Below, one piece after another: positions 4,488 to 64,000 of a DNA stretch of 64,000 nucleotides. The position numbers and the translations under genes were made by a program. The notes beneath the pieces are model-generated. The model searched no databases, was not told where the DNA came from, and was given only the letters and a program-made list of their open reading frames with translations. Origin of the DNA: Lepraria neglecta (taxonomy: Eukaryota > Ascomycota > Lecanoromycetes > Lecanorales > Stereocaulaceae); the NCBI GenBank assembly GCA_033220425.1, contig CM065652.1, positions 744,001 through 808,000 on the forward strand, given 5' to 3'. Within the stretch, counting starts at the first letter, position 1. Each line of letters begins with the position of its first letter.

Positions 4488-5995
4488 ATGGCGTTAATAG
4501 ATGTCGTTCCAAAGCCGCCTGCCTCTCCACAACCCTTGGATCTACCTCCGAGCAGCCCTATGCTGCCCGCGCATCAGCAGATGCTTACATTGGAGCACAT
4601 TCAACAATTCTTGGAACTGCTGAAAGCCGTTCAAGCCCTACCGGCTCCAGGAAATGCCACCAAGACTGAAGAAACACCCGGAGACGGGCAAGGAGCAAAG
4701 ACCAGAGCCTCGAAGCTAGAGTTCAAGACCGTCAATGAGATGTGAGCGTGATAGGTTTCCTGCTTGAATGCCAGGATCGCTCACAACTATTGCTTATAGC
4801 TGGGATGCAAAGACGTACGAGTATAAGATTACGGAGTCATCGAAACCGTCCGAAGAATTGACAGACCTGGATCAATACGTGTTCGTTGTCCACCAGCGAG
4901 TTGGTAAGTTCGTTGAAGTCTGTGTACACCTCTCCAACTGATGATGCTGGTCTAGACAATAGGACTATAGACCCAATATACTATATTAATATTAAATTAG
5001 AAGGGTTGCGAGACATCTTAAGAATAGTCCTACGAGAGATCCACGCGATTAATCTGAACGATAACAAGCCTGCGGTATTACCCTTTCCAAGCCTATCAAT
5101 TCGAGTTTACCGCTTATTTGAACCTAGATCGAATAAAACCTGTTATATAACTACCTCAGTGAATTAGAGTTATATCGGAACAACGCAACGAGGCCTCAAC
5201 GTATATTTGCAGTAAGATCCTTAACATCCCTCTCTAAATAGACTGACGGGCCACATAGTAGAATACCAGGCGTCGGAAAGATCTTGACGGCCGAGGCGGT
5301 ATCGGAGTACCTTCAAAGGCCGCTCTATTCGGTGCGTATATCTGCTTAGAATCCGTCTACCAGTCGTTCCAACTCTTCACATCTCGACCGGAGAATTAAG
5401 TATCAACTCAGCAACGCTGGACCTCCAGCTTTCGCGCGTCTTCCAAACTGCCAGCTACTGGAATGCGCTTATCCTCCTAGACGAAGCAGACGTATTTATA
5501 GAACGATGCTTAAAGCAGGATATCGTTTGTAATAAGCTTGTCTCGGTGTTCCTTCGCAAACTAGAATACTGCGAGGGGATTATATTCCTTACTACGAATC
5601 GAGTGTCTGACTTCGATAAAGCGATCCTTAGTAGGATCTATCTCATATTAAAATACAACGGACTAGGAGCCGACACGAGAAGCAAAATCTGGGGACACTT
5701 TCTCCGGAGGGCGCGCATATCTTACGGAGCAGCGTTAATAGGCCGTAAGGATATAGAACGCCTGGCCAGCACGACCTTTCACGGTGGATAGGTAGGTTGC
5801 TATACCGTGCATCTGGAGACGTCTTCCACTGATCAGCTTCATTAGATCAAGAATATCGTTGCTATAGCTCACGCTCTAGCTACCAAGAAGAATACTCCGG
5901 TGGCCTATTCGCATGTCCGACAGGCGGTCAAGGCGAGCGAGAATTTTATCCGCGAATTCAACGGCGTGAGCATCGTCGAAATTTTATTCCATTAA
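4488..5995 (+). pseudogene. Broken AAA+ ATPase of the fungal DUF7025/AAA family
   Basis: ATG at 4,488 opens a proline-rich leader followed by RASKLEFKTVNE. An intron at 4,742-4,799 joins it to WDAKTYEYKITESS and LDQYVFVVHQRV, the DUF7025-type pattern; a second intron is 4,904-4,955. The family's long middle section is missing: the frame fails near 5,167 and only about 100 bases later comes a damaged Walker A region (PGVGKILTAEAVSEYLQ). Walker B (NALILLDEADVFIE) and sensor 1 (IIFLTTNRVSDFDKAILSRI) follow. After HGG the codon at the next donor site is TAG where family members have Gln (5,789-5,791). The last intron is 5,792-5,845, then KNIVAIAHALATK and VRQAVKASENFIREFNG, ending with TAA at 5,993. 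It was a soluble ATPase of unknown client. The internal deletion makes this copy non-functional. Confidence 0.78.
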
Positions 5996-6252
5996 CCTTA
6001 TGATGGACGGAATCAAACTGTTCAAACGTTTCTTGCTGTTGGTGTTCGACATTAGGTGGCACAGGACATAATCGGAGGTTGAGCATAGTAATAAATGAGC
6101 TTATAGCAAATCAAGGTTTACAGTCCGCGGCTTGAAGAGCGTATCTCTCGCTCCACGTCTTAATGCCGCTTAACTCCGTTGAAGCAGGTTTAGAGAGCCA
6201 GAACTACTGTCCATTAGTCGCGTCTCTAAATGACGGTTGACGACGGCGAAAC

Positions 6253-6975
6253 ATGCCGGGCCAACCAATTTTAGATCCTGAGTACGAGCGGCGTTATCGG
6301 GGCAACAGTACGTCCCAGGTTCTCGTGACTTTCCTGCTTATCGTTCGTTTTATCAGACAGCCTACTCTGACACAATACATCCCACCTGGTGCAACAGATC
6401 ACTTTGAAACCGGATCGACTGCCAACATCTGGCGACATCCAACACTTGCCGGCGTTGTCATAAAATCTCTAGCGACAGAGCCACAAGACCCGCGACATAA
6501 GCACAAGTTTCGCATTGAAGTAAATATCCTGAAAGTATTAGGCGTACATCCGAGGATCGTCCAGTAGGTACTGTCACTGGCATTATCTTTGCTACATGAT
6601 TGCGACTATGTGGTTAGATAGCTAGGATGTTTGCAACCATCAGAACCCAGTCGGGATCTTCTCTTCATGGAGGCTGCCAACGGAAGTGTGCAGCAATACT
6701 TGAATGTCCTGGGCAGTTCAATCGATGATCGATTACGACTCAAGTGGTGCAAAGAAGCAGCTAGAACCCTCTACTACTGTCACACATGGAATGACCTGCG
6801 CCCAGACAACATGCTCCTCAACGCCGATTTAGATCTCTCTTTGTATAATTTTAGAGGCTCAAAAAATGAAGAATGTGATGGAGGAGGGCTTCCTGATTAT
6901 GGGTTCTTTGATCCACAAAGTGACTCTTTAGCTGTCACTGAAGCCACAGAGACATTCGGGTTGGGCTGTAGCTGA
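6253..6975 (+). pseudogene. Broken protein-kinase-like gene
   Basis: ATG at 6,253 begins a leader, then TGSTANIWRHPTLAGVVIKS, which resembles the glycine-rich loop and the VAIK lysine strand. KFRIEVNILKVLGVHPRIV matches helix C and the start of strand 4. A codon TAG (6,565-6,567) lies just before an intron (6,568-6,621). The second exon carries DLLFMEAANGSVQQYL (hinge), RLKWCKEAARTLYYCH (helix E) and DLRPDNMLL, the catalytic loop, but residues between CH and D are missing compared with the usual GVIHSDLRPDN. Further on GGLPDYGFFDP and EATETFGLGC match the activation segment and helix F, where the frame ends at TGA 6,975. The C-lobe is absent. The pattern fits a kinase-like family expanded in Pezizomycotina. 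Confidence 0.72.
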
Positions 6976-7197
6976 AAACAACTTTGGAATCTCCACGGCA
7001 GGCAGTTCAACACCCCTGAAAGGATCGGTGATGTTCAATGGAAGGCCGGAGGGGAAGTTGACTTCCATAGTGTGCTTGTCAAACTCATGCTGCATCAACG
7101 AGCGCATCAAAAGCTCTTTTTCGTATCACAAATCACCAGACATGTCACCGGCAACGAGAACAAGATATGATGATCACTTCAAGGCCACAGAAATCTG
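6976..7197. other. Unassigned protein-like segment
   Basis: The plus strand reads VDFHSVLVKLMLHQRAHQ and ITRHVTGNENKI in one frame, ending near 7,170. It looks like part of a protein but I cannot name it. The minus strand is also open here (6,928-7,110). Confidence 0.3.
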
Positions 7198-7251
7198 CCC
7201 TTCCAAGACAGAGGACTTCCCACTGGATTGATCACCGACCACAACAAGCTG
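7198..7251 (-). pseudogene. Fragment of a dynamin-family GTPase (G1 motif only)
   Basis: On the minus strand the sequence encodes QLVVVGDQSSGKSSVLEG, the P-loop of dynamin-like GTPases (GDQSSGKSS) with its preceding beta strand. Upstream residues are not dynamin-like and downstream the similarity stops at once; neither the switch regions nor G4 are seen. It is an isolated scrap of about 18 codons, presumably left by rearrangement. The motif itself is very specific. Confidence 0.65.
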
Positions 7252-7708
7252 TAACAGACGCGTCAGGATTGTGCCTGAGGTTACTTGGAGCCTCTTCGTG
7301 TCTTCTCTTCCGGGTAGATTATTAACCTCTAAGCAGCGTAGTGGGGAGACAACAGCTAGAGAAGATATCACGTTATACGACGACGCAAGACCGTGGAAAG
7401 AGAGGTCGAAAGCTTGACGGAGAGAAGAGCGAAGATTAGTGACGGCAAACTAGAAATTTAGGAACCTGGGTTTAGGAGTCCTGGTTGGGAGGAATAGCGC
7501 TTACCTTCCATACTAAGCCGTTGCATTAGATGGTAGCTCTGGCACTCCATAAGGATAGTCACTTCCGACGTTAGCTACATATGGAGCATAAGTTGAACGA
7601 AGACATGAAAATGCACCATCTGCCAAAACTGCCCTCTTATGATACGCGCTTGCACATCGCTAGGCCAAAAGAAAATGGGGCGGTAGTTGGTCGAGAGGGA
7701 CTATTGAC
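7252..7708. other. No gene seen
   Basis: Mixed-composition sequence between the dynamin scrap and the chromo-domain relic. No family was recognised on either strand. Confidence 0.45.
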
Positions 7709-8880
7709 TCAATGCCTACATTTTGACGCCTTCGTCTCCTAGTTTCGTAGTAATTCTGGCGAGGTGAGTCAGCCTCCGTCCACCCAGGACGGTTTCTATC
7801 GAATTAGGTATTGCTTACGGGGTCTTCCGCGCCCTTGCTTCATACCTCTTTCGTCGACAATCTCTCCTTTCCAACTATACTACTCGTAGATAACAGCCAT
7901 CCGAGATGTTTGAGGCCATTTCGACTGTCCGCCTATCTCCATCTCATTGTCATCGCTGGTATCTTCCCTAATACCGGTCAAGCGACATAAAGTCGGTTAA
8001 GAAGATATAGTGCGTTGGGGTTCGGTAGATGCGTAACTGCTGATATCCGACTCGTTCCCCGTCTCCTCGGTTTCCTCGTCTGACGAAAGCGGTGACGAAA
8101 AGCGGCGGTATTTGGTATCGCACTTCTCGGGAAGTTTCTCTCCGGCGGCAGGAAGAGACCTCGTCTTCATAGCACGCAGTAAAGACGTATTCTTCTCGTA
8201 GCGATTGCTGACGTTTTATTCTCCTTCATCTTATTCTACCGCTTCTTTATTATATACCTCCGCCTCTTTACCGTCGCATTGATCTTTCTTATCCTCATAG
8301 TTTGAGGAGCCGGGCTCGGTGTACTTGCCATCGTTTTTGATATCGTATATCTGTTTGCCGCGTGACGATAAAAGGCCGTTGCGGCACGGAGGACGAGTAT
8401 TTGAGGTAGATGATTGGTTCGTCTTGTGGGCGGTGGTCGATCTGGATCAATACAATCTTCGTTAGTATCAGACTAATCGAGTAGGGGCTAGGGGTCCTAC
8501 CTAGTTTCTGAGCCCGTCACAGAAGTCGGTTGAGTATTGAGCGAACCTTGCTCCACACCATGTCCGTCAGCATTTGAGTTACCGCTGGCGTAGCCGCAGC
8601 CCTCCGAGTGATCGTCATCCAATATCGTGGGCTCGTCTGTAGACCATCAGCCTCGTTTTCAGCAACACGTAGGCTGATATACACACCTTCTTCTTCACCT
8701 CGTCTCGATTTAGGGGTGGTAACCCCACTGTTGTTCTCGGACGAATGTTCTAAAAGTTACTCTGTGTTCACCGCTCAAGCCCACTCGTTCGAATTTCTTA
8801 TCTCTCCGATATTGAGTATCAACTCCTCAACGGTTGGGAGGTCATCGTGGTCTTCGCTAAGGCTGTGATCATGTCACAGC
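7709..8880 (-). pseudogene. Decayed chromo-domain-like gene
   Basis: Read from about 8,880 down on the minus strand. The start has SEDHDDLPTVEELILNI, an acidic motif common in fungal chromatin-like proteins. A frameshift lies near 8,640. An intron at 8,442-8,500 has a perfect TACTAAC branch and joins VTGSET to RSTTAHKTNQSSTSN. A long low-complexity acidic region follows (SSPLSSDEETEETGNESD). The C-terminal part reads WKGEIVDERG, then GRPRKQYLIR and a stop where a chromo domain has Trp (YLVRW pattern), then KPSWVDGG and LTSPELLRN. Several in-frame stops are TAG where Trp is expected, or TAA or TGA reachable by one transition. It probably bound chromatin. The family is an inference from this short C-terminal pattern. 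Confidence 0.52.
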
Positions 8881-9227
8881 TACTTCTTGACCTCATACCT
8901 CGATCAAGCTCTACCGTAGCAGCCAGCGGTGCTATCATCAAAGTTAGCCTCGCCGAACGCCTCGCAGGACCCTTGGCAGCGCCCTCGCAGTGCGGATCTT
9001 CGTACATCTATTGCTGGTCGCTGCTGATCCACCAACTGTACATGGTCCAGCGTCGTTACAGCAGACCATCACAACTATAAGCTCGAGACATGTCGCTATA
9101 ACTGGCGCAGGTAATAAGTGCTCGGCAAGATGGCACATTAAAAGTTTCACATTTCCAGGAGGCCCGTCCCCGATAGAAAGAAAGAAAGAAGGAGTTAAGA
9201 GTATTGAGGAAGACGGGAAGAAATAAG
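8881..9227. other. No supported gene
   Basis: Several frames overlap here on both strands because the GC content is high, but none has family features. The relic's first exon, if any, could lie here. Confidence 0.4.
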
Positions 9228-9451
9228 CTTAGAAGGGTTCACCCTCTGAGTCGTCAAACCCCCTGAGTTGTCAGTTGGGCCCTAGAGAGGCTCCTTCGGG
9301 GAGCCGGATTGGGCCCCGAGACGGATTAAATCCGAAATCTCTGGGGACTACTGCCACCCCCCAGACGACCAGCTTTAGACCATGTTTAAGGGCGGCCCGG
9401 GCGGGTGATAACTCAGGGGGTTTGACAACTCAGGGGGTGAACCCTTCTAAG
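9228..9451. mobile_element. MITE-like foldback element with about 45-base inverted ends
   Basis: The left end (from CTTAGAAGGGTTCACCC) and the right end (GGGTGAACCCTTCTAAG) are inverted copies over about 45 bases with a few mismatches. Within each end a CCCCCTGAGTTGTCAAA-type unit is partly repeated. The centre has small hairpins (AGGCTCC/GGGAGCC and CGGATTAAATCCG). It is about 224 bases long and non-coding. No clean direct target duplication is visible; TTA/TAA lie at the borders but belong to the inverted ends. It is GC-rich and not visibly RIP-mutated. Confidence 0.72.
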
Positions 9452-9832
9452 GGAGCGACGTTGATAATTAGGTGTCCTTCCTATTATCGCCGCTTTTCTA
9501 TGGAGACACGGCGCTCGAAAGGTAGATCTGGAATGGCCTGAATTTCAACCAGGCCATCAGATTACGTAGTAACGAATCGCCCACCTGGAAGGCGAAAGAA
9601 CCCACCTCCAAGGGGGCGCAGTCACCCAGGATCACCCAGGCTCGCGCGACGATCACCTGCATCGCACGAGAATAAAGCGGCGCTCACCCTAGACCCGGTG
9701 GGGGGTGAGGTCGGGGCAGATTTCTGTCACCTTGGTGCGGAATTTCTCCGAGAAAAAGCCAAGGGTTGAGCAAACTGTCATCCTACGCATCTCTCCACCT
9801 AACAATTTCAACCACCCCATAGAAGCTCCACA
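9452..9832 (+). promoter_or_regulatory. Upstream region of the SVP26-like gene
   Basis: These 380 bases lie before the ATG. They hold a direct repeat TCACCCAGG at 9,622 and 9,632 and an inverted pair TGGCCTG (9,534) / CAGGCCA (9,550). No clear TATA box is seen. The regulatory roles are unproven. Confidence 0.35.
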
Positions 9833-10681
<849 letters not shown>

Positions 10682-10788
10682 CGTTTACCTTGGAGATGTT
10701 GTTATTTATAATGGTAAATTGGGGCTTGGGAGGGAAAGCGTCTGAAACAATATCAATCATACGAATCCTTCGACCTCCTTGTGAAGAC

Positions 10789-10842
<54 letters not shown>

Positions 10843-11385
10843 GCTACGAGAAGCCTAGCCTGCTCTGACGACGCCAAATAATGACGGTTGAGGTCTGCGT
10901 TGAGACCATTGCAAGCAGAATGGGATGATCACGATTTAGCTAACTCGAGGAATGACAAATTAAAGATTGACTTTACTAACTGCAAGGGTATTGTTCTAAA
11001 AGTAAATGCATATGTACAGGCGTACGAATCGAATCTGGGCCTTGGTAGGCGTCCTCATCGCTCGTGCGGGCTTTCCCCAGCTCAGTAGCTTCATGCTTCG
11101 TGATCAGAATGGTTACTGCATTCACAATGACTTGATCTCGTTTACTTTGATATCATGGGTTTCTTTTGTCCAGCCTTTTCTATGGCGCTATGTGGCCATA
11201 AAGAACGATAGCAAACTCACTAACGAGAGGTGTTGCGCATAAACAGATCCGAAATGCTGTAGAGCCACAAGACTAGCGAGTCATATAAGATATGTCATAC
11301 TGGATGAGAAAATCACATTGCAGGCTCGGTCGTGGATCTGGAACCATAAATGCCGACGTGATCGCATGAAGGGCCACGAACGCCG
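10682..11385. other. Shared 3' intergenic region of two convergent genes
   Basis: It presumably holds both 3' UTRs. Apart from the GTA repeat, short frames at 10,888-11,242 have no protein features. No other gene is seen. Confidence 0.6.
10791..10842 (+). repeat. (GTA)n microsatellite
   Basis: About 17 perfect trinucleotide units lie about 110 bases past the stop of the SVP26-like gene. On the minus strand it makes a false poly-Tyr open frame. Confidence 0.95.
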
Positions 11386-13495
11386 TTAAGAAGAAGGTGG
11401 CCGATGTGGCCGATTTTCGCGTCCAAGTATTCGTCCAGCGTAAGCAAGGACAGAAAGCGGATCGGCATCCGGACGAAGAGGAGGGTCTTGGGAATCATCA
11501 CGTGACATGGAAGGGAGGGTTGGCAGGTTAGGATGGTGGGGAGGATGCCATGGAGAGGGGAGAGATCGCGAGCTTGTTAGGGTAGCAGATTTTTCCTGAT
11601 CAAGGGTCAGGTTCCTGAGCGAGTTCCGTTCCCGGGGTATATCTTGGAGATCGAAAATGTTAGCGAGCTTTCCCTCATGCTCGGGACGTGGCTGAGGATG
11701 CTGACCAAATGCGATGTTGTATGGCAGTGGGAGTTGAAGAGATTCGAATTTCATACCTGATGGGGACGGATTAAAAGGAGAATCCGGACCTCGCTGTGGG
11801 GCGAAGGATGAAGCGGTTCGGCTAGTGCGTGGTGGAAAATTGCGTTGAGGGGCTGAGTCGAAAGACGAGGCGCCACCGACCGAGTTCGTCGTAAGGTTCG
11901 CAAGAGCTGGGAGTGACATAGCCGCTCTCTTTTCTTCGTCTAATGTCACAGCCGAGAAGATGGATGACGGCGCTGTACTGGTGCTAGATACGGTGGAGCC
12001 AATCGAGGATTTCGACGATGAATCCGATGTACTATGCTCAAGGAGGTTGGGAATGTGATTAGACCGGCACAGTTGTTCAAGCGGGCTAGTCCGACCCCGT
12101 ATTGGTTTCGGATCGTTGAATGGCCCTGAAGCAGAGCCTTGCGCTGTTTGCTTTTCCCGGTTGTCGTTTGGGAAGAATCGGTGGTTTTGCTGGCACATTC
12201 CAGGTGGCCCCCCTCGCTCCGAGTACGTGTCGATAGAAGGCCGGTCTTGTAATGTACCATGGAGCGAGGACCAGGTCGAGGACAATCTACGGACAGATGG
12301 CGTAGAAGGTGATGTGGGCATTGGAGACGCGGTCCCAAGGGGAATGATTGATGAGACACCTCCCCGTAATGCAGGAGTCACAGAGGTAACGCTCGCTGGT
12401 GATGGAAGCCCGCTGGCGGATGAGTAGGGGCCCACTGAGCTCATGGAGTCGAATCTTCGTTCTCTTGGATCGGTACTAGCAGATGAAGGCTCTTGACACT
12501 CGACATAGCTTGAGCTTCCGATGCTTCCACTACTTGTAGTACTTTCCTCTTGCACAAGTTTAGGTCGCTTTCCATCTGGTAACATTAGCTTCAATCAACG
12601 ACTCAGGAAAACATTGGTCTACCTGATGTCGACGAGTTCTTGGCTTTGAACTCCCCTAAGTACTGTTGGTACTCTCTGTAGGATCTGGTGGTTTTGTACT
12701 CTGCCATCCCGGTATGGTATCTCTCTTTCGCTGTCAACGCTTCCGATTCGTAAGGCTCCTTCTCATCAGCCGAGAGTTCTTGCCAGCGCTCCCCGACCCT
12801 TTTCGCAATAGCGGTGAACGATAGGTATTGCGGTTTCAATTCTTCCCGTATTTCTTATTGCTGTCAGTATTCCGACTGAAGGAGAAGGTGCATCAAGCGT
12901 ACTGTTTGAAAAAATGACATAAGCGGAAGGTGCTCGTTCAGGGGCGTTCTCATCGGCCTATGTATCGTCAACAAGTCAGCAGATTTTCTTTTGCATGATA
13001 TGATCGGGGCGCCATCAATGTCGTCCTGTTAGGAATGGTAATAAGGTACGTACCTTAGGGTGACGTCGGTATTTCCGCTTACCCCCTACACCAGTACCAC
13101 TCTTCACATCTGCCCTGTTTTCTCCACCCCGACCCTTCCCAGGCGAACGCGAGCCAGTGGGGGAGCTTAATTGCTCAACACTCAAGCCCCGCGCTTGCCC
13201 TATCTCTTTCTGCAACAACTGCGTGATGTCAGTTCCATGCTCCCTGCTCCAAGAAAAGGACGGCCGCATAGCAATAAGTCAGGGTATGACTGACCCTGCG
13301 ATGTCCAAGTTTGACTCCCAAGGCATCACTGCACGAGCTGTTAGCCAGGTGCAGGCCAATCACGTGTGTGGGCCAGTACAGATCAGACTCAGTGATATCC
13401 AAGAGCGTCTCCCACGTCTCGAAGCCCTCCTCTTTGAATTTCTCGATATACTGCGCAAGGCCCAGGCGAGACAGAGGTTCGTGGAGATCAGTCAT
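11386..13495 (-). CDS. SAM-domain plus HMG-box DNA-binding protein, complete
   Basis: Six exons on the minus strand: 13,380-13,495, 13,295-13,328, 13,054-13,218, 12,903-12,957, 12,623-12,853 and 11,386-12,575. All five introns (51, 76, 96, 49 and 47 bases) are GT-AG and keep frame. The product is 596 residues. Residues about 1-65 form a SAM domain (LHEPLSRLGLAQYIEKF, ITESDLDALGVKLGHRRLLQ, rebuilt across two introns). A basic linker leads to an HMG box at about 100-180 (KRKYRRHPK, APERAPSAYVIFSNKIREEL, FTAIAKRVGERWQELSADEK, YKTTRSYREYQQYLGEF). The rest is Ser/Pro-rich and disordered, ending with DPLSVLAYAGRILG. SAM domains mediate oligomerisation and HMG boxes bend DNA, so this is probably a nuclear transcription or chromatin factor; its targets are unknown. 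There are no breaks. Start chosen: the first ATG giving an intact SAM domain. Confidence 0.9.
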
Positions 13496-15059
13496 TCACG
13501 CTGCGGGCGATGGGGTTACTCGGATCGGAGGTCCAATTGGTTTGAATGAGTGACACGTCGGCGGCACAATGTCGTTTATGAGAGCTTGGCCTCTCGAGTC
13601 CCATGGGTTTATGTGTAGATTGTGGTTGAAGTAATGTACGTGTTTCCATAGACGGCTTGAATCGATGTGAGCGTGAAGGGCGATAGAAGCTGGTGTGGCA
13701 GGTGTTGAGAAGAAACAGAGTCCGAGGTGAGGCAAGGAAAGGCTAATAGTAATGAGTGTGGTTCGGGGTAGTTCAGGGTAGTTCAGGGTGGCGTTCAGGG
13801 TTCCAGAGGACACCAAGGTATTGGATAGGTGTGGGAGATGGCGAAGTTGTAGATTGTGATGTAAAATTTAGATGCTGACACCAAATGGACGCCGGATGCG
13901 AGATCTCGATGAAGATAAGAAGTTGAAAGGCAGAAGCAGTGAGAATAGGCTGTCGAACGGAGGTTGTCTGGGCTTCGGACTGGACTGTGGATTGTATCAG
14001 GTATCAGGGAAAGGGAAAGGGAAAGGTGAGGGGAGGGACATCATGGAGTTGCGGGAACGAAGTCGATGGGATCGAGATCGTCGGAATAATGATAATGCCA
14101 TTAGGCATGCATTGAAGAAAAGGGCATCGAGAAATTGATGGATTGCGATACAAGACGTCGATGATCCTCGGTGGAATCCTTGAACCAAGGGTCCACGGAT
14201 AGACCGAATGCGAGGGGATCTCATGTTAACGTTGTGCATCGAGATCTGGGGATGGCAGGGCCAAGCAGGGCCCTGCCTTTTGATAGGGTAGATTACCGCT
14301 AAGAAGATGGATTTCTTTACATTTCTATATGACCAGGCCTATTCTATCAGATACAAGCCCGAGGACAAAATATCGCCTTGCTATTGGCCCCCACCGGCCC
14401 CGAAACCAAGTTTAGGCAAGCGAGCCGGTTTTCTGGAATGTCTGGCACCGCCTAGGCGTATCTTTTGTATCTTTCCCTTATTCTTTGTCAAACGCCTCAG
14501 AGGCACTGCATCTCGATCTGCCCTCCGAGCTTGGTCACCCTTTTGCCTCAACCCTTCCACCCAGTCATCCGCTTCTACCGCTGATGACCGCGAATCGCAT
14601 TAACATCAAGGGATTGGAATTTTTACCAATTGAAACCTCAATGTGGCCCATGCTACCGTGCAGGGCAAAAAGGCAATTTGCCCCCGTGACATTATGCTCG
14701 TACAGAAGTGGTGGAGTACCTGGACGATCAACGATCATGCCATCCTACTCCAAATTTCTAGCGGTTGACGCAATGTGCCCTGCCTACCGAGTACTACTTA
14801 ATGCCAGTCCTAGACCTCTCTTGAGCCAACTATTTGCGAAGCATGTCAGCCTGTTGTTTTGAGATTCATCAAAGCTCGCAGACTATTGAAGGGAGACTGC
14901 GTACGCCGGTAGTCGGACGCGTCGTCTGTTTCGCAAAGCCAAGGAACAGGAATAAAGGTCAAGCGAGAATAATGGCACTGTCTTTCCGAAGCATTGATGA
15001 CGATAGTTATGGTAAGGTGCCCGCCCGGTCGGGTTAGTCAGCTCCCGCCGCTCTGCTCA
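13496..15059. other. Upstream region of the SAM-HMG gene, no supported gene
   Basis: It holds GTTCRGGGTA units repeated at 13,761-13,800, a purine tract (GGGAAA)n at about 14,007-14,025, and an inverted pair GGCAGGG (14,254) / CCCTGCC (14,271). Open frames at 13,872-14,138 and 14,307-15,191 have no family features or convincing introns. Confidence 0.5.
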
Positions 15060-20236: not shown

Positions 20237-20760
20237 TATTACGAACACGTTACGTGCTATATATCGTATATAGATTGATTCTCAATAGGGATAGAGATAC
20301 AACTAGACAAGAGTATAAAGCAGGCTTCAAGTGATACTAAGCGGGTCTGGTATATAATTAGATGATATATATTCAGTGCCTAGCCTAAGAGATCTATCGT
20401 ATATAGTAGATACTAGATGAAAATAGAAGTTAAGCACGATACTCCAAGTAGTAAGTAGTGCTCCGCATATATAGATATACGAAATCCATACCAAGCATTC
20501 TTGATCGCACTGATCGTACTGATCGCATCTGCGCTCATTGCGACCACTACGCTTATCGCTTAACATGCCAAGCCTTCCTAATCGCACTAATCGCACTAAT
20601 CGCACTAATCGCATCTGCGCTCATTGCGACCACTGCGCTCATCGCTTAATATGCCAAGCCTTTAGGGTCTATCTGAGTCGGATACTAACTCATCGACTCG
20701 AACTATAACGGGCGCTATACTCTATAAGCGTATCCCTGATTATATTTCCTAATCGTAATA
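20237..20760 (-). repeat. LTR of element B (left copy)
   Basis: It contains a duplicated unit of about 85 bases built of ATCGCACTG-like steps followed by CTGCGCTCATTGCGACCACT (about 20,500-20,660). Confidence 0.88.
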
Positions 20761-21932
20761 TTAGCTTCCTCTCCCAGATTTCTCGTCCTGAGAAACTATC
20801 TATCCTTTATACTACCCCGATATACTAAACGTTCAGATAAACCGACCGTCCGCCGAACGGTGTTGGCCAGTAAGCTAAACGAAGTTATTATACGGCTGTA
20901 CTCCCGATATATTGCCAGCGGTAAATAGTACCTGATAGGTACAGGGTCCGATAGGTATTCTAACTATATAGGTAGCGGTAGGAAATATAACCTTATAGTA
21001 TCGCCCCTTAAAATATATTATATTAAGACGGAACGAAAGGAAGTATAGTTATAGTTAAAAAACGCGCGCGAAGAGCTTAAGGATTATATACAAAAATCAA
21101 TAGAGGAATCTATATATCTTTAGACTACGCTAACGCGCCTTTAGATATAGTATAAATATCTTGAAAATAAAAAGCGGAAGATTATAGACTAAGAGATATA
21201 GAATATTAAGGAGTTAGAAGAAGACTAGCGGTCTATCCCAAGTATTCCTAATAATTAGATATTCAACGTCTCGTCCGAATAATTTGGCTTCCTAGCCGGA
21301 ACTGATTGGTCCTCCTTCCCGATCGTTCCCGGAACTCCTATAGAAGGCCCTAGCAGTTCCGGAGGTTCTTAAGGGGTTCCTAGGTATTTTCGATATTATT
21401 ATACCCTTTCTATTTAACTAGATATTTCTAATTAACCTAATTTAGAATCCTCTTAACCTCGAACTCTATTTCTTCCTTAATATTATAGTAAAATATTTCT
21501 TAGAGAGGTATATTAGAGTCCGCTGGCTCTAAGAGTAAGATATAGAATACCGGATATACTTTAGCGTTAGATAGTAGTTAGAGTTTATAGTTAACTAGTC
21601 CTTTTAACTATTTGATTAAGAATAGTCTAACCTTAATATAATCTAGTTTCTTACTTAGTCTCGTTATCCTTATATTTTTTATTAGGAGGTATACTTTATC
21701 CCCCTCTTTTAGCTAAGGAATATTCTTTCTTTTCTTATTAATCTATTCCTTTAACTTCTTATTAGAGCTCTTAATAGACCTTTATATATCCTTATATAAA
21801 TTCTTTAGCTCTTCTACCTTAACTAAGGCTCTTTCTATATTAGGTCCCTCCCTTAGTTATAGAAATATATTTATATTCTTTCTATAGTTAGTAAAGAATA
21901 GAGTCAGTCCGGTTATATCTAACCGCTTATTA

Positions 21933-22343
21933 TATTACGACCCACGGTGGTTGTATACCTAATGGTGCGATAGCTACGTATAGGTTCGTGCGTCTTATGC
22001 TTCTATAGGAGAGGAGTTACTCAGGTAGAATAGCAGTCTTCGTATCGATAGGTAATTAATACTTTCTATATTGATAACTAGTAAAGTATAGTACAAGGAG
22101 TACCAGGAAGATTAACCAAGTTGAATATACTATTCCAAACAATAGGTAGAGCCCCGTATATATAGATATAGGGAACCCTACTAAGCAATCCATAAGCGTT
22201 ATAAGCGCACGACGCTCATTGCGCTCATCATTCTTGAGCGCCATGAGCGCACGTCGCTCGTTGCGCTCATCGCTTCAGCTGCTAGTCCTGTCTATAGTAC
22301 CTTGTCCTACAGGATAGTCCTGTTAGAACCAATAGTTCTAATA
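21933..22343 (-). repeat. LTR of C1 (left copy)
   Basis: 411 bases, from TATTACGACC (TGTTACGACC in other copies) to GTTCTAATA. It contains GAGCGCA-type repeats and a TATATATAGATATA box. Confidence 0.92.
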
Positions 22344-22860
22344 CTAGCCCCCTCCTCCAGATTTCTCGTCCTGAGAAACTATCTATCCTTTATACCTCCT
22401 TATCGAAATATCTATTCTAAAGACCCCCTTATCCGTCGCAAAGAACTCTCTAGTAAATTATCTAGATTCGTAATACGTCCTTATACTCCCTGTATAAAGG
22501 GTAATAAATAGTACTTGGTAGGTGTCCGTTTAGACCGTTATTCTAACTATATTATAGCGGGCAAAAAGTATAATCTAGTTATATCTATCGACGAGATATA
22601 TTATATTAAGAAAGTTTGTAATAATACTTAGTTAGAAATAAAGGAAACGCAGGCGAAATTTATACGCCTTTAATTATAATTCGATTATATCTAGGATAAA
22701 GAGAAAAAGTTAGTTAAGCGCGAGTTATAGAATATTAAGGAGTTAGAGAAGGATAAGGACCTCCCCTCTAATACTCCTAATAGTTTAATATTCAACGTTA
22801 GCTCCGAGCAGTTCGACCTCCCCCCGGCCTAGAGGGCCCCGAGAGTTTCGACTAGTCTTC
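22302..22860 (+). other. Antisense accessory open region of C1
   Basis: It lies on the strand opposite gag-pol, between the left LTR and the end of pol. It starts at the LTR border (FLVLRNYLSFIPPY) and is followed by a charged, coiled-coil-like stretch. The same region is found in C2, C3 and, more diverged, in B. It is broken here. Confidence 0.5.
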
Positions 22861-25800
22861 TCTTATCTCTAATGAAACTCTTATAGGCGTTCCCCGTAAT
22901 TCCTCGCAAGGTTCCTAAGAGGTTCCCAGGTACTTTCCGTTTCGTTATACCCTTTCTATTTAACTAGATAGAACTAATTTCTTCTATCTAGGATCCTCTC
23001 GACCTTATACTCTATTTCTTCCTTAATATTATAATAGAATATTTCTTAGAGTAGTATATTTAAGTCTACTAGCTCTAGAAGTAAGATATAGAATACTAGA
23101 TATACCTTAGCGTCAGGCGGAAGCTCGAGTTTATAGTTAATAGCCCCCTTTACCTTCTTGATTAAGAATAGTCTAACCTTAATATAATCTAGTTTCTTAC
23201 TTAGTCTCGTTATCTTTATATTTTTTATTAGGAGGTATACTTTATCCCCCTCTTTTAGCTAAGGAATATTCTTTCTTTTACTATTAAGTTATCCCTTTAA
23301 CTTATTATTTAAGTTTTTAATTATCTTTTATATATCCTTATATAAATTCCTTAATTCTTCCGCCTTAACTAAGGCTTTTTCTATATTAGGTCCTTCTCTA
23401 GGTTATAGAAATATATTTATATTCTTTCCGTAGTTGGCAAAGAATAGTATTAGACCTGTCGTATCTAACCTTTTATTATTATACGCTAGTTATACTATTA
23501 GAAGTAGTAAAACCTAGTTATCTTGTTTTTAGTTCACGTAATATCTTAGATAGGCTTCTATTATTTAGTTTACACGTTCTATTTATCTATTAGTCTATAG
23601 ATAGTATATAGTTAATATCCGAAGTTTAGTTCTAATTACTACGATTAGCGTTCTCTAATAATTAGAAGTAAATAACTTGTCTCTATCGGATATTATTAAC
23701 TTAGGTATACTATAATCCCTTATTAGCTTATCGAGTAATATAAAGGCTAATTAATCCGCTTTATATATTTCTTTAAAAGGTATTATAATCGTATACTTCG
23801 TAAGTTTATCTATAATAACTATAATCGAATTAAAGATATTCTACGTAGCTAGATCCTTTAAAGGCGGTAACTTGACTATAAAGTCTATTATGATATCATC
23901 CTATAGTAATTCTAGTATAGGCGTAAACTGAATTTGCCCGTACTTGGCGTATCGTGCCGCCTTGTTTTATTAGTACTAGATATATTCTTTAATATATTAT
24001 TTAACGTGTATCCGAAGCTTCGGCGCTACGTACCCTCGTCCTAGGAGCTCTATAGTCTTAGATAATCTAGGGTAACCTTATAAAGGGTTATTGTAGTAAT
24101 CCCTAATTACTTCTTTAACGTATATATCGGGTACGTAGGTTTTATCCTAATATTTGAGTAATACTAAATCTAGTTAATCCCGTCGTAGCTTTGTTGCGAA
24201 TATATCATTATTGTAGGCCTTTACGATCCTATTAGTCGTATCGGGTCCTAATATATAAAGGGTTATTACTAATACCTGGTATAGCACTAATAATCCGTCG
24301 GCTTCTCGTTTTAGGATTGGTTATTCTATAATATTCTTTTCTTCTATATAGTCCGATTACCTACTAAGTATATCTACTTAACTATTATCTTTTCCTAGGG
24401 TATAGGTTATCTTGAACTTATATTATCCGAGTAGCTCTAACTATCTAACTTATCTTCTATTTAACTCTTTTATTATTATAAAGTTAAGAAGATTCTTATA
24501 ATCCGTAAAGATAGTTAGGTCTAAGTAGCTTTCTACGTATACTCTCTAATTTTAAAGTATATATACTATAGTAAGTAGTTCCTTATCGTATATATTATAG
24601 TTTTACTCTACTACTAATATTTTTCGCGAAAAGTAGGTAACTAGATACTACTTTTAGTCCTTTATTTAATAAAGGTATACTCCTATTATAAGATCCGAGG
24701 TATCTATTTTAATATAAGCCGGTTCGTTAGCTTAAAAGTTATAGAGTACTAGAGGATCCGTATATACTTTCTTTAATATATTAAATAACTTCTATTATTT
24801 ATATCCCTATATAAATCCGATATCTTTCTTTATAATATCTATAAGTAGAAGTACTTTCTTTAAGTAGCCTTCGATAAACTTCCTATTAAAGTTAGTAAAT
24901 CCTAAGAAACTTTATACTACTTTAATATCCTGTAGTATAGGCTATTCCGCTATAGCTTTGATCTTTTCTAGGCTTATACTAATACCTTTTATACTAACTA
25001 TAAATCCTAGGAACTTAATAGAGTCCCTATAAAACTCGTACTTTTCTAGTTTAAGGAGAAGTCCTACTTATAATAGGTATTTAATAATATCCTATATATA
25101 CTTAACATATTCTTCCTTTTTCTCGGAGTAAATCAAGATATTATCGAGGTATAATATCGCTATTCGATCTAAGTATACTTATATAACGTTATTAATAAGT
25201 ACTTAGTAGGTTACTAGTGTGTTAGTAAGTCTAAACGGTATTACTAGGTACTTATAGTGGCTATATCTGGTTCGGAAGGCAGTTTTCCATTCTTCGCCTT
25301 CTTTTATCCGAATTAGATTATATATACCTCTAAGGTCTAGTTTCGTAAATATCTTTACTTTATCAAGCCGATCCTATAGCTTACTAATATTTAGTAAAGG
25401 GTAATGATTCTTAATAGTAATATCGTTCAACTTTCGATAGTCGATATATAGCCTTAGACTTCTATCCTTCTTTAGTACAAAGAGGATTAGATAACCTACT
25501 AGTAATTTAGATTCCCGAATAAATCCCTTCTTAAGGTTCTTATCGATATACCTACGAAGTATAGTAAGTTCCTTTTCTAATAATATATAGATAGGTCTAA
25601 ATATTGGCGCCTTACTAGGTTCGAGTTCGATCTTATAATCCTATAGTTAGTATTTAGGTAGCGCTTTTACGCTCGTCTCTTCCTCGAATAGGTATACCTA
25701 CCGTTTATATTCCTGAGGGATTATAGAAGGTTCGTCTTTTCCTTTAATAGCTCTCTCTTTAGTATCCCGCTAACCTTTACTAGTAATAGAGGAGTTAAGC

Positions 25801-28061: not shown

Positions 28062-28472
28062 TGTTACGACCTATAGTAGTTATATACCTAATAGTGCGAT
28101 AGCCACGTATAGGTTCGTACGTCTTATACTTCTATAGGAGAGGAGTTACTCAGGTAGAATAGCAGTCTTCGTATCGATAGGTAATTAATACTTTCTATAT
28201 TAATAACTAGTAAAGTATAGTATAAGGAGTACCAGGAAGATTAACCAAGTTGAATATACTATTCCAAACAATAGGTAGAGCCCCGTATATATAGATATAG
28301 GGAACCCTACCAAGCAATCCATAAGCGTTATGAGCGCACGGCGCTTATTGCGCTCATCATTCTTGAGCGCTATGAGCGCACGTCGCTCGTTGCGCTCATC
28401 GCTTCAGCTACTAGTCCTGTCTATAGTACCTTGTCCTATAGGATAGTCCTGTTAGAACCAATGGTTCTAATA
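28062..28472 (-). repeat. LTR of C1 (right copy)
   Basis: It starts TGTTACGACC after TTCAAAG and ends GTTCTAATA before TATTA. It has the same length as the left copy; differences are nearly all transitions. Confidence 0.92.
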
Positions 28473-33068: not shown

Positions 33069-33583
33069 TATTATAAATACGTTACGTACTATATATCGTA
33101 TATAGATTAATTCTTAATAGGGATAGAGGTATAACTAGATAAGAGTATAAAGTAGGCTTCAAGTAATACTAAGCGGGTCTAGTATATAATTAGATGATAT
33201 ATATTTAGTGCCTAGCCTAAGAGATCTATTATATATAGTAGATACTAGATGAAAATAGAAGTTAAGTATAATACTCCAAGTAGTAAGTAGTACTCCGTAT
33301 ATATAGATATACGAAATCCATGCCAAGCATTCTTGATCGCACTGATCGCACTGATCGCATCTGCGCTTATTGCGACCACTGCGCTTATCGCTTAATATAC
33401 CAAGCCTTCCTAATCGCACTAATCGTACTAATCGCATCTACGCTCATTGCGACTACTGCGCCCATCGCTTAACATGCCAAGCCTTCAGGGTCTATCCGAG
33501 TCGGATATCGACTCGTCGACTCGAACTATAACGGGCGCTACGCTCTATAAGCGTATCCCTGATTATATTTCCTAATCGTAACA
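33069..33583 (-). repeat. LTR of element B (right copy)
   Basis: It matches 20,237-20,760 across its length and ends TAACA, followed by CGTTA. Confidence 0.88.
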
Positions 33584-37400: not shown

Positions 37401-38264
37401 GGTAATTAGGGGCAATAGGTGCCGATTCTTGATCGTTATCGTATTTAACCCTCGATAATCTATATAAAGACGTAGCTCCTATCCTTCTTCGGTACGAAAA
37501 GTATAGATACTCCTACCGGCGAAACGGAGTGGCGAATCTACTTCTTTCCTAGTATATCGTTAAGGTACTACCGAAGCTCCGTTAGCTCTATTCTTAATAG
37601 ATTATAGATAGGACTATAAGGTAGCTCCCTACCGTCTAACTTAATAGTATAGTCTCTCTACTTTTATTTAGGCAAGATCCCGGCTTTCTCGCTTAAGAAG
37701 ATATCTTTATACTCCTATAATTTAGGAGGAAGGGTTATATCAAACTCGTTAGTCTGAGGTTACTCCGCTATTACGGTGCTAGCGTAAACTATAGCGAATA
37801 CTTTCTATTCCTATTATAAAACTTTGCCAAATTCGATCGGTCTATCTAGCTATATTAGCCTAGGATTTATTTGGTACCGCTATTAGCGCGCTAGCGTATT
37901 AACTATAATATCTGACTTATAAAGCGCTAGTATCCTAATAATCAAGTCGGGACCCTCCTGGTCTACGGCGTAGAATAAGGAATTATATTCCTTTTCTTGC
38001 CCCTAGTTATTAGTAGCTATATAGCTTAACTAAAACGCCCTATAATAAAAGGCGCCTTATCCGCTCGGCTATACTGGTATCGGCAAGATAGCGCGTTCTA
38101 GCTATAAATTATATTGTACTACGAACCGCTGAGAGACCAAGCTAACTATTGCCCTAGGGTCAATTAGTCCCTTGATAGGCTATTAACTACCTAGGAGGAT
38201 TACTTGTCCCGTAAGGTAAAGGGGTTCTAAGGCTTCTATTTATCTATCTTCCCCCGCTTACTCG

Positions 38265-38634
38265 TGTTACGACCCACGGCGGTTGTATACCTAATAGTGC
38301 GATAACCACCGTATGGGTTTCGTGTGTCTTATGCTTCTGTGGGAGAGGAGTTACTCAGGTAGAATGGCAGTCTTTGTGGTTATAGGTAGTCAATACGTTC
38401 TATATTGATAACTAGTAAAGTATAGTGCAAGGAGTACCAGGAAGATTTAACCAAGTTGAACACGCTGTTCCAAACCGTGGGCAAGACCCCGTATATATAG
38501 ATATAAGAAATCCTGCCAAGCATTCTATAAGCGCTTGATCGCTTAGCGTTCCAGCGCTTATCGCTTCAGCTACCTATCCTATCTATAGTAACTTGTCCTA
38601 CAGGATAGTCCTGTCAGAACCACTGGTTCTAACA
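38265..38634 (-). repeat. LTR of C2 (left copy)
   Basis: TGTTACGACC...GGTTCTAACA, with intact TG and CA ends. It lacks one unit of about 40 bases that is present in the right copy. Confidence 0.93.
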
Positions 38635-39150
38635 CTAGCCCCGTCCTCCAGATTTCTCGTCCCGAGAAACTATCCATCCTTTATACTACCTCGATATACT
38701 AAACGATCCAAGGACCCTGTTGTCCGTCGTACCGAACTCTCTAAGGAGCTCTTAGAAGCTATTATACGTCCTTGTAACAATTATACCCGCCTAGGTAGAT
38801 AGTATCTAGTAGGTTCTAATTCCGACCGTTGTTCCGCCTGCGTAGCTAGTAGTAAGAAGTACGACCTTATAGTGTCACCCCTTGAGATACGCCGTATTAA
38901 AAGTGCGCGAAAGAAAGTTCGTACCGAGATCCGTGAAATAGTCGCTAAGCTCGCATGGCTATAAGCGGAGGAGGACTATATTAAAGAGGAAAAACGGAGA
39001 CTTGTTAAGAGAGAGCTTTTAAATATTACGGAGCTGGAGGAGGATTAACGAGCCTCCTTAGCTACTCTAGATAACCTTATATTCGATATTAGTTCCGAGC
39101 GGTTCGATTTCCCCGACAGTTTAGAAGTCCCTGAGGGCTTCGACTAGTCC
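38593..39150 (+). other. Antisense accessory open region of C2
   Basis: It begins at the LTR border (FLVPRNYPSFILPRYTKRSK) and runs opposite to gag-pol. Next come cysteine-bearing and coiled-coil-like stretches, homologous to those of C1 and C3. It is broken. Confidence 0.5.
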
Positions 39151-42100
39151 TCTCTTGCCTCTAATAGAACTCTTATAGACGTTCCCTATAGTTCCCCGTA
39201 AGGTTCCTAAGAGGTTCCTAGGTACTTTCCGTTTCGTTATACCCTTTCTATTTAACCAGATAGAACTAATTTCTTCTATCTAGGATCCTCTCGACCTTAT
39301 ACTCTATTTCTTCCTTAATATTATAATAAAACATTTCTTAGAGTAGTATATTAGAGTCTGCTAGCTCCAGAAGTAAGATATAGAATACCGGATATACCTT
39401 GGCGTCAGGCGGAAGCTCGAGTTTATAGTTAATAGCCCCCTTTACCTTCTTAATCAAGAATAGTCTAACCTTGATATAATCTAGTTTCTTACTTAGTCTC
39501 GTTATCTTTATATTTTTTATTAGGAGGTATACTTTATCCCTCTCTTTAAGCTAAGGAATATTCTTCCTTTTACTATTGATATACTCCTTTAACTTATTAT
39601 TTAAGCTTTTAATTATCTTCTATATATCCTTATATAAATTCTTTAGCTCTTCTACCTTAACTAAGGCTTTTTCTATATTAGGTCCTTCCCTAGATTATAG
39701 AAATATATTTATATTCTTTCCGTAGTTGGTAAAGAATGGTGTTAGACCTATTATATCTAACTTTTTGTTATTATACGCTAGTTATACTATTAGAAGTAGT
39801 GAAACCTAGTTATTCTATTTTTAGTTCACGTAATATCTTAAGTACGCTTCTATTATTTAATTTATATATTCTATTTATCTATTAGTCTATAGATAGTATA
39901 CCGTTAATATCCGAAGTTTAGTTCTAATTACTATAATTAGTATTCTCTAATAGTTAGAAGTGAATAACTTATCTCTATCGGATATTATCGACTTAGATAT
40001 ACTATAATCCCTTATTAACTTGTCGAGTAATATAAAGGCTAATTAGTCCGCTTTATATATTTCTTTAAAAGGTATTATAATCGTATACTTCGTTAGTTTA
40101 TCTATAATAACTATAATTAAGTCGAAGGTATCTTATATAGCTAGGTCCTTCGAAGGTAGTAGTTTGACTATAAAGTCTATTATAATATTATCCTATAGTG
40201 ATTCTAGTATAGGCGCAAATTGAATTTGCCTATACTTGGCGTATTATACCGCTTTATTTTGCTGGAAGTGAATATATCCCTTAATATATTATTTAACGCG
40301 CGTCCGAAGTTTTGGCGCTACGTATCCTCGTCCTAGAAGTTCTATAGTCTTAGATACTCTAGGATAACCTTATAACGGGTTATTGTAGTAATCCCTAATT
40401 ACTTCTTTAACGTATATATTAGGTAAGTAAGTTTTATCCTAATATCTAAATAATACTAAATCTTATTGATCCTGTCGTAGTTTTGTTATAACTATATCGT
40501 TATCGTAGGCCTTTACGATCTTATTAGTTATATTAGGTCCTAATATACGAAGGGTTACTACTAATACCTAGTACGATACTAATAATCCGTCGGCTTCTCG
40601 TTTTAGGATTAGTCGTTCCGTAATATTCTTTTCTTCTATATAGTCCGATCGCCTACTAAGCGTATCTACTCGACTATTATCTTTTCCTAGGGTATAGGTT
40701 ATCTTGAACTTATATTATCCGAGTAGTTCTAACTATCTAACTTATCTTCTATTTAACTCTTTCGTCGTTATAAAGTTAAGAAGATTCTTATAATCTATAA
40801 AGATAGTTAGGTCTAAGTAGCTTTCTATATATACTCTCTAATTTTAAAGTATATATACTATAGTAAGTAGTTCTTTGTCGTATATATTATAGTTTTATTC
40901 TACTACTAATATTTTTCGTGAAAAGTAGGTAACTAGATACTACTTTTAGTCTTTTATTTGATAAAGATAAGCCCCTATTACGAGATCCGAGGTATCTATT
41001 TCGATATAAGCCGATTCGTTAGCTTGAAAGGTATAGAGTACTAGAGGATCTATATATACTTTCTTTAATATATTAAATAACTTCTATTATTCTTATCCCT
41101 ATATAAATCCAATATCTTTCTTAGTAATATCCGTAAGTAGAAGTACTTTCTTTAAGTAGCCCTTAATAAACTTCCTATTAAAGTTAGTAAATCCTAAGAA
41201 ACTTTGTACTACTTTGACGTCCTATAGTATAGGCTATTCCGCTATAGCTTTGATCTTTTCTAGGCTTATACTAATACCTTTTATACTAACTATAAATCCT
41301 AGGAACTTAATAGAGTCCCTGTAGAATTCGAACTTTTCTGGTTTAAGGAGAAGTCCCGCTTGCGATAGGTATTCGATAATATCCTATATATACTTAACAT
41401 ATTCTTCCTTTTTCTTAGAGTAAATCAAGATATTATCGAGGTATACTATCGCTATTCGATCTAAGTATACTTGTACGATATTATTAATAAGTACTTGGCA
41501 GGTTACTAGTACGTTAGTAAGTCTAAACGGTATTACTAGGTACTCGTAGTAGCTATATCTGGTTTAGAAGGTAGTCTTCTATTCTTCGCCTTCTTTTATC
41601 CAAATTAGATTATATACGCCCCTAAGATCTAGTTTTATAAATATCTTTGCCTTACTAAGCCGATCCTATAGCTCGCTAATATTTGGTAAAGGGTAATAAT
41701 TCTTGATAGTAATATCGTTTAACTTTCGATAGTCGATATATAGTCTTAGACTTCCGTCCTTCTTTAGTACGAAGAGGATTAGATAACCTACTAGTAATTT
41801 AGATTCCTAAATAAATCCTTTCTTAAGGTTCTTATTAATATACCTACGAAGTATAGTAAGTTCCTTTTCTAATAATATATAAATAGGTCCAAATATTAGC
41901 GCCTTACTAGGTTCGAGTTCGATTTTATAATCCTATAGTTAGTACTTAGGTAATACTTTTACGCTTATCTCTTCCTCGAATAGGTATACCTACCGCTTAT
42001 ATTCCTAAGGGATTATAGAAGGTTCGTCTTTCCCTTTAATAGCTCTCTCTTTAGTATCCTACTAACCTTTACTAGTAACTAAGGAGTCGAGCCTTCTCTC

Positions 42101-44352: not shown

Positions 44353-44762
44353 TGTTACGACCTACGGCGGTTATATACCTAATAGTACGATAACTACCGT
44401 ATGGGTTTCGTATATCTTATACTTCTATAGAAGAGGAGTCACTTAGGTAGAATAGTAGTCTTTGTAGTTATAGGTAGTTAATACGTTCTATATTAATAAC
44501 TAGTAAAGTATAGTGCAAGGAGTACTAGGAAGATTTAACTAAGTTGAATACGCTATTCCAAATCGTAGGCAAGACCCCGTATATATAGATATAAGAAATC
44601 CTGCCAAGTATTCTATAAGCGCTTGATCGCTTAGCGTTCTAGCGCTTATCATTCCTAATTACTTAATCGCTTAGCGCTCTAGCGCTCATCGCTTCAGCTA
44701 CCTATCCTATCTATAGTAACTTGTTCTATAGGATAGTCCTATTAGAACCACTAGTTCTAATA
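44353..44762 (-). repeat. LTR of C2 (right copy)
   Basis: 410 bases. Versus the left copy it has an extra CGCTTAGCGCTCTAGCG-type unit, and many TG and CA dinucleotides have become TA. Confidence 0.92.
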
Positions 44763-63202: not shown

Positions 63203-63609
63203 TGTTACGACCCACGGTGGTTGTATACCTAATGGTGCGATAGCCACGTATGGGTGCGTGTGTTTTATGCTTCTGTAGGAGAGGAGTTACTCAGGTAGAA
63301 TGGCAGTCTTCATCTATGTAAGTAGTTAATGCGTTCTATATTGATAACTAGTAAAGTATAGTGCAAGGAGTACCAGGAAGATTAACCAAGTTGAACACGC
63401 TGTTCCAAACAGTAGGCAGGGCCCTATATATATAGATATAGGAAATCCTACCAAGCGATCTATAAGCGCTCGATTACCCAGCGCTCTATTGCTTATCATT
63501 CTTGAGCGCTTGATCGCTCAGTGCTCTGGCGCTTATCGCTTAAGCTGCTAGTCCTGTCTATAGTACCTTGTCCTACAGGATAGTCCTGTTAGAACCAATA
63601 GTTCTAATA
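63203..63609 (-). repeat. LTR of C3 (left copy)
   Basis: 407 bases, close to the C1 and C2 LTRs but with its own arrangement of GCGCT/GATCGCTCAG units at about 63,460-63,540. Confidence 0.92.
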
Positions 63610-64000
63610 CTAGCCCCCTCCTTCAGATTTCTCGTCCCGAGAAACCATCCATCCTTTATACCACCCCAACGTACTAAATAATCCAAGGACCCTGTCGTCC
63701 GTCGTACTGAACTTTCTAAGGAACTCTTAGAAGTCGTTATACGCCCTTATAATAACTGTACCCGACTAGGTAGGCAGTATTTAGTAGGGTCTAATTCCGA
63801 CCGTTGTTCCGCCTGCGTAGCTAGTAGTAAGAAGTGCGACCTTGTGGTGTCGCCCCTTGAGATACGCTATATAGAGAGTACGCGAAAGAAAGTTTGTATC
63901 GAGATTCGCGAAATAGTTGCTAAGCTCGTACGATTGTAAGCGGAGGAAGACTATATTGAGGAGGAGAAGAAGAAGCTTGTTGAAAGGGAGCTCCTGAATA
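63610..64000 (+). other. Antisense accessory open region of C3 (runs off the edge)
   Basis: This is the clearest copy. At 63,796-63,843 the plus strand encodes SDRCSACVASSKKCDL (C-x2-C ... C), preceded by another Cys-bearing segment and followed by a long charged stretch with heptad-like spacing (IREIVAKL, EEDYIEEEKKKLVERELL). It resembles small fungal zinc-binding/coiled-coil proteins often found in repeat-rich genomes. Function unknown. Confidence 0.55.

Follow-up and report, generated by a model that had tools for sequence, protein, structure and literature searches.

Antisense gene and U3 half-site array as an exchangeable cassette in LTR retrotransposons of Lepraria neglecta

Genes read antisense to gag-pol and lying between pol and the 3′ LTR have been described in plant Gypsy elements (Grande gene23, RIRE2, Retand, PvRetro13), where they are kept in most copies; some of their proteins are nuclear and a regulatory role has been suggested, although their function is given as not known (PMC7264820). 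A fungal counterpart, brtn, is reported from the Boty-like Ty3/Gypsy elements of Botrytis and Sclerotinia, which have a gag-pol with chromodomain and the extra antisense gene between pol and the 3′ LTR (Zhao et al. 2011, cited in PMC8365987, PMC7264820 and PMC4227169), and the earlier note on the DNA studied here was therefore wrong to take the fungal form for undescribed. Among retroviruses, HTLV-1 has HBZ, described as an antisense-encoded leucine-zipper protein whose expression is driven by the 3′ LTR and which in turn acts on LTR transcription. Mosaic LTR elements are also documented. Tf1 and Tf2 of S. pombe and Tosmo1-3 of S. osmophilus have a near-identical Pol (98% for Tf1/Tf2) and a strongly different U3 segment, and recombination between elements, possibly in reverse transcription, has been proposed for them (PMC10085805). 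Modular evolution of U3 was likewise described for Tnt1, with a conserved coding part and a sharply different U3, in a paper that also cites a mosaic BARE-1 (PMC1838419).

The DNA analysed here, which we call the window, is a stretch of 64,000 nucleotides (positions 744001-808000, G000:C7) of the 42.0 Mb genome of Lepraria neglecta. Its antisense gene fits the aORF-3R class, being located between pol and the 3′ LTR, antisense to gag-pol, and under protein-level constraint in 51 copies. It shares position and orientation with the plant aORFs, which differ in their hosts and in proteins without clear similarity to others, and for which the relevant passages of PMC7264820 mention neither an operator array nor a shared cassette. 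With brtn it shares its setting, a fungal Ty3/Gypsy gag-pol with chromodomain and an additional antisense gene, a likeness of description and not of sequence, and the passages citing brtn speak of no six-cysteine motif, U3 array or cassette exchange. In Tf1/Tf2 and Tosmo the second variable part is gag with the adjacent 5′ UTR, whereas in Lepraria it is the antisense gene by the 3′ LTR, gag and pol being constant; the word "antisense" is absent from the text of PMC10085805. No linked coding gene appears in the passages on Tnt1 and BARE-1 (PMC1838419). HBZ is a retroviral bZIP protein, whereas the Lepraria protein is cysteine-rich and would only by inference be transcribed from the LTR and act on it. 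In the open literature we found no antisense gene that moves with U3 as a cassette. The antisense-gene class and U3 mosaicism are known; what seems new is a six-cysteine antisense protein whose gene is exchanged as one cassette with the array.

Position and state of the antisense gene

The gene is present in four elements of the window, C1, C2, C3 and B, which lie on the minus strand, C1 being nested in B. In all of them its start is just inside the polypurine tract, at a distance of some 50 bp from the 3′ LTR, and it is read on the plus strand, opposite to gag-pol. The 3′ LTR of C3 (63203..63609), which is its left LTR, ends at about 63609 and matches the LTRs of C1 and C2, is followed in the sequence by a polypyrimidine stretch, the complement of the polypurine tract (63614..63624); the 5′ part of the antisense gene (63658..64000) then runs past the window edge. 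In C2, whose LTRs are at 38264..38632 (3′) and 44353..44762 (5′), the gene occupies 38683..39210 and its last codons are opposite the chromodomain end of pol (39164..39262), the two genes thus meeting tail to tail. The same overlap is found in B, where the gene (20809..21372) meets the chromodomain end at 21329..21424 between LTRs at 20237..20758 (3′) and 33069..33581 (5′). In C1, the gene lies at 22392..22919, with an approximate end given that the frame changes before it, the chromodomain end at 22872..22970 and the LTRs at 21935..22343 (3′) and 28064..28472 (5′). In C2, one LTR is about 40 bp shorter than the other, and we suspect that the difference lies in the array region of U3.

Integrase or chromodomain-side pieces of pol were located on the strand opposite to the gene in 22 of 23 contexts, comprising 20 fetched loci with C1, C2 and B. 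When the fetched loci were turned gene-forward, minus-strand pol pieces were seen in 19 of 20, L027 having none; the chromodomain-side piece, recognised by eye, stood alone in L020, L026 and B, while the integrase piece was identified with Pfam as Integrase_H2C2, with rve below the cut-off. Since the minus strand carries the pol pieces in C1, C2, B and these 19 loci, the plus-strand reading from 63658 in C3 is antisense to gag-pol, in accordance with the strand and place, beside the 3′ LTR, that the earlier note had assigned to it. In the tail shared with pol, pairwise transversions at codon positions 1, 2 and 3 were 202, 122 and 210 when counted in the antisense frame and 202, 210 and 122 when counted in that of pol, so that the antisense frame fits the tail somewhat better than the pol frame. 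A length difference in the pol overlap alters the antisense tail of L001, L007, L010, L047, L048 and C1 (at about 22830) and spans two antisense types, as would be the case if the pol backbone, rather than the cassette, included this stretch.

The window copies are broken remnants. The start codon, judged by the ATG position of other copies, is lost in all four, and in-frame stops number 2 in C3 (within the window), 5 in C2 (ahead of the terminal stop) and, over the opening 176 codons of the frame, 8 in C1 (the last two at or after the frame change) and 11 in B. C1 and C2 show a RIP-like dinucleotide bias, with TpA/ApT of 1.57 and 1.62 and (CpA+TpG)/(ApC+GpT) of 0.25 and 0.24, as compared with 0.80 and 1.13 in positions 1-15000 of the window. 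In the window elements and the pol alignment, C/T columns were highly variable before A in 76 of 218 cases and before G in 42 of 63; since those before G vary too, the decay is wider than the CpA context. In the codon alignment, 191 of the 209 in-frame stops are a C-to-T or G-to-A change from a codon present in another copy at the same column.

A genome search with a 131-residue query gave 501 candidates, 150 of which scored as matches, and 13 of these 150 places (counted by eye) were stop-free within the matched stretch, so that less damaged copies of the gene exist. The codon alignment was built from 55 tblastn gene matches, which left 52 copies after removal of three duplicates and 51 after the omission of L031 (G000:C3:3836215-3836959), where the gene departs from the family after codon 93 and yet keeps a long open frame; a single genome supplied all copies, most of which are mutated. 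On its reverse strand, L008 has a second, B-like antisense gene (match at 2868) about 1 kb from its C-like one, pointing to nested or adjacent elements.

Thus, the earlier statement that C1, C2, C3 and B hold the same gene is borne out, and the gene is found genome-wide. Its presence in two families, which had been taken as evidence of a service to the elements, holds for B and C, but has little weight alone given that the two are 81-84% identical over long pieces of their internal DNA. The region had also been described as open and as filling the space between pol and the 3′ LTR: the antisense frame is constrained but not open, and the gene adjoins the LTR while its 3′ end overlaps that of pol.

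Constraint and architecture of the protein

Openness is a weak signal here: stops per 125 codons average 4.1 in the antisense frame, and the mean is almost the same, 4.08, in one of the opposite frames. Constraint was evaluated on transversions, which are not caused by the C-to-T decay. On the tree of 51 copies, transversion parsimony in the antisense frame gave 119:81:271 changes at codon positions 1:2:3, the third-position excess being reached by none of 20000 permutations and the excess of position 1 over position 2 by 446 of 20000. The transversion-only nonsynonymous/synonymous ratio was 0.156 in the antisense frame (bootstrap over codons 0.106-0.225), 0.274 in the mirrored minus frame, which shares its third positions, and at least 1.34 in the remaining four, and the LTR control was near flat (14, 21 and 16 variable columns modulo three). 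The antisense frame is a protein gene once under purifying selection.

Six columns of the alignment are occupied solely by Cys or Tyr in 51 of 51 rows, in the arrangement C-x2-C-x6-C-x8-C-x2-C-x6-C; all six cysteines are kept in 7 of the 51 rows, and Tyr fits the decay of a Cys codon. C3 has lost two cysteines of the first triplet. After this module, the heptad hydrophobic excess is 0.432 as compared with 0.189 in shuffles, and 42 of 51 rows are above the 95th percentile; insertions of 7, 14 and 18 codons occur in the helix in 7 of 51 rows, the coiled coil of B being 18 codons longer. Behind the coiled coil comes a tail that contains aromatic residues and is acidic, with 11-14 acidic as against 1-3 basic residues in the six copies inspected. 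The encoded protein is some 175 residues long, with a basic N-terminus, a six-cysteine module that probably binds two zinc ions, a pairing coiled coil and an acidic aromatic tail. For a 93-residue N-terminal piece that is naturally open, modelled by AlphaFold with 16 natural rows, the mean pLDDT was 60.2; one helix is confident (66-92), another moderate (12-25), and confidence is low in the cysteine region (block means 38-48).

The GAL4-type binuclear zinc cluster has six cysteines with a usual spacing, and its basic residues usually come after the second cysteine. The number and spacing (2-6-8-2-6) of the cysteines in the antisense protein fit this Zn(II)2Cys6 pattern, and a coiled coil lies behind them as in the fungal regulators of that type (PF00172), but the basic residues are not in the usual place and there is no Pfam match to PF00172. 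The 68 PF00172 places in the genome, compared by eye with the 150 listed places of the antisense gene, showed no coincidence. With all rows set against 20 host Zn2Cys6 domains, hhalign gave 11.8%, where 50 full shuffles reached 9.3%. With 15 rows chosen for at least five cysteines it gave 57.8% over one half-motif, where 60 full shuffles reached 20.7%, and at least one of 60 Cys-keeping shuffles was higher (69.8%). In global mode the figure was 1.4%. Profile similarity to the PF00172 family was thus not found with Pfam, hhalign or the genome places. Judging from the cysteine pattern, the antisense protein may work like a Zn2Cys6 regulator, and we do not claim membership of the family.

A Pfam match to Phage_GP58 (E 0.0033, below cut-off) was taken for a chance match, and a comparison with the PDB gave nothing convincing, with just two matches at E 0.46 and 0.55. 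The origin as a captured host protein, which had been offered as a possibility, is accordingly neither supported nor contradicted by Pfam (one match below cut-off), the PDB or the genomic PF00172 places. In one scan of viral contigs with the alignment, eight stretches matched a pattern and none of them coded a relative. A spliced first exon in the LTR was also considered, C3 having an ATG followed by GTAAGT near 63300-63330, and was set aside as the donor-like word seemingly is not conserved in the other copies inspected.

The cysteine motif and the coiled coil noticed at the outset are both real, except that the motif quoted then is only the second half of the six-cysteine one. The proposal that the gene served the elements, perhaps as a nucleic-acid-binding regulator, fits with the purifying selection, the six conserved cysteines and the heptad coiled coil. 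The claim of the earlier note survived its own refuting conditions in the one genome covered: constrained relatives on the same strand were found, and the signal was not an effect of gag-pol codons only.

Exchange of gene and array on a constant backbone

In the part of the LTR adjoining the polypurine tract, we scored arrays of two direct and two inverted 7-mers in the 32 copies with enough upstream sequence. The array beats all 100 dinucleotide shuffles in 28 of the 32; one shuffle reached the score of the array in each of C3 (L001), L004 and the second gene of L008, and 14 shuffles did so for the second gene of L027. For a control stretch further up, scores were 20-29 in 31 copies; in L026 the score was 32, equal to the array of that copy. 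Within the window, the four half-sites are at 63504..63534 in C3, at 38529..38559 and 44617-44647 in the left and 5′ LTRs of C2, at 22235..22269 and 28364-28398 in those of C1, and at 20598-20631 and 33344-33377 in the 3′ and 5′ LTRs of B. The layout is similar across copies, while the words vary with the antisense type (GATCGCT/AGCGCTC, TGAGCGC/GCGCTCA, TGGTCGC/GCGCCCA, GATAGTA..TGCGATC and others). C1, with TGAGCGC words, thus has another type of array than C2, and its antisense gene also differs in type from those of C2 and C3.

Five antisense types sit on the same backbone, two of them as single copies in our sample. The comparison of 21 copies was made within one outer-LTR cluster and one pol cluster and includes L013 in spite of its odd right LTR. 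In transversions per site, the gene differed by 0.179 in the 139 pairs of different type and by 0.012 in the 71 pairs of the same type, pol by 0.0113 and 0.0114, and the outer LTR by 0.0737 and 0.0718; since the types are clusters of the gene itself, the contrast of 0.012 and 0.179 in the gene follows from their definition, and the real test is that pol does not differ. C1 and C2, for instance, differ at 77 of 400 sites in the gene, 12 of 1200 in pol and 8 of 165 in the outer LTR. Five pairs of different type were compared along pol and gag between +500 and +5500 bp, and each 500 bp held 0-9 transversions. In the profiles, the cassette is bounded in U3 between about -250 and -150 and at the gene end between about +400 and +450, and the 50 bp around the polypurine tract are common to the types. 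The reverse case also occurs, with near-same genes and outer LTRs far apart, in L014/L017 (14/400 in the gene, 46/146 in the outer LTRs) and L025/L028 (15/400 and 45/146).

The array words track the antisense type. Among 22 copies of one backbone, which here include L003, left out of the 21 for having its own pol cluster, the 6-mer cosine was 0.609 for the same type and 0.239 for different types, a contrast reached in none of 5000 permutations. The outer LTR did not track the type (0.481 and 0.477; 2165/5000), and the 95 bp between array and gene did so slightly (0.667 and 0.604; 8/5000). Gene and cis sites have therefore been exchanged jointly on a conserved backbone, in the manner of a phage-like cassette, and the sites are candidate targets of the protein encoded by the gene. 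However, the array and the gene are neighbours, and their joint transfer may be plain linkage.

Readings of the cassette

The reading that we favour, with a probability of about one half, is that of a real antisense protein gene transcribed from U3, the dimeric product of which binds the U3 array of its own element and regulates the LTR, the cassette being swapped between near-identical elements. Transcription would most likely start in the U3 part of the 3′ LTR; a dimer formed through the coiled coil would bind the two direct and two inverted half-sites, and this would regulate, in one direction or the other, the LTR of its own family. Gene and array would be inherited as one cassette, and its exchange would probably take place by template switching in reverse transcription between co-packaged RNAs, which would explain its presence in both LTRs of the new copies.

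The alternative that survives best, which we nevertheless find doubtful, is that the protein is a nucleic-acid-binding accessory for some other step, such as nuclear import, integration targeting or RNA packaging, the array being an enhancer for host factors that is only linked to the gene. The tail-to-tail arrangement with the pol chromodomain and the distance of less than 500 bp between array and gene would suit such an accessory, and similar roles are discussed in a source that describes the plant Grande antisense protein as nuclear (PMC7264820). On the other hand, a partner of the particle or the integrase should track pol, and among 29 copies (with distances resting on too few sites set to 0.5) the Spearman correlation with pol distance was -0.007 for the gene as compared with 0.66 for the outer LTR; moreover, the array layout persists though its words change.

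It could also be that genomic copies already inserted produced the mosaic, through ectopic gene conversion or recombination with one another, and that it is without meaning for the biology of the elements; in Cochliobolus, retrotransposons are reported to recombine ectopically (PMC4112212). L013 (G000:C3:1686943-1695335) would be such a case, its left LTR having words of the TGGTCGC type and its right LTR of the TGAGCGC type, suggesting a later recombination between elements. We consider this rather improbable as a general account: of the 22 elements examined, 18 yielded a right LTR, and the same words were present in both LTRs in 16 of these 18 (L014, L016, L017, L023, L025, C1 and C2 among them), the other two being L013 and L024, where the match belongs to a neighbouring element. 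A double swap after insertion being unlikely, the mosaic elements were themselves copied.

That the antisense transcript outweighs the protein, forming dsRNA with the gag-pol RNA and so dampening the element, is an idea discussed for plants (PMC7264820) and one that the tail-to-tail overlap with pol would allow; we judge it quite improbable here, as an RNA role needs neither constraint at the amino-acid level nor six fixed cysteine columns. A chance open frame from codon bias or composition, for which one could invoke the opposite frame equally poor in stops, we regard as already refuted by the codon-position pattern, the comparison of frames, the cysteine columns and the near-flat LTR control.

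Returning to the regulatory reading, a more specific form of it can be proposed only tentatively, and we think it unlikely as it stands. In this form, the antisense coiled-coil protein of each family would recognise its own U3 operator and repress elements of the same type, so that a foreign cassette would let the backbone escape and spread. Phage immunity regions consist of a repressor and its operators, and near-identical backbones carry different regulator-and-site cassettes. The likeness lies in the cassette exchange and is used as an analogy only, regulation in the Lepraria elements being hypothetical. If true, such an immunity-type switch would account for at least five strongly diverged cassettes on one near-invariant gag-pol backbone. 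Escape from homology-based silencing is a less likely driver of the exchange, because gag-pol is unchanged.

Plant and fungal elements as well as retroviruses are known to have antisense genes by the 3′ LTR; here, the architecture of the protein is readable and a candidate target lies in the same element, and the natural recombinants on one backbone amount to a ready experiment. If the gene and the array cooperate, LTR retrotransposons would own a self-encoded, type-specific switch, swapped like a phage immunity region, and this, if true, would have a bearing on the control of copy number and on why some elements burst.
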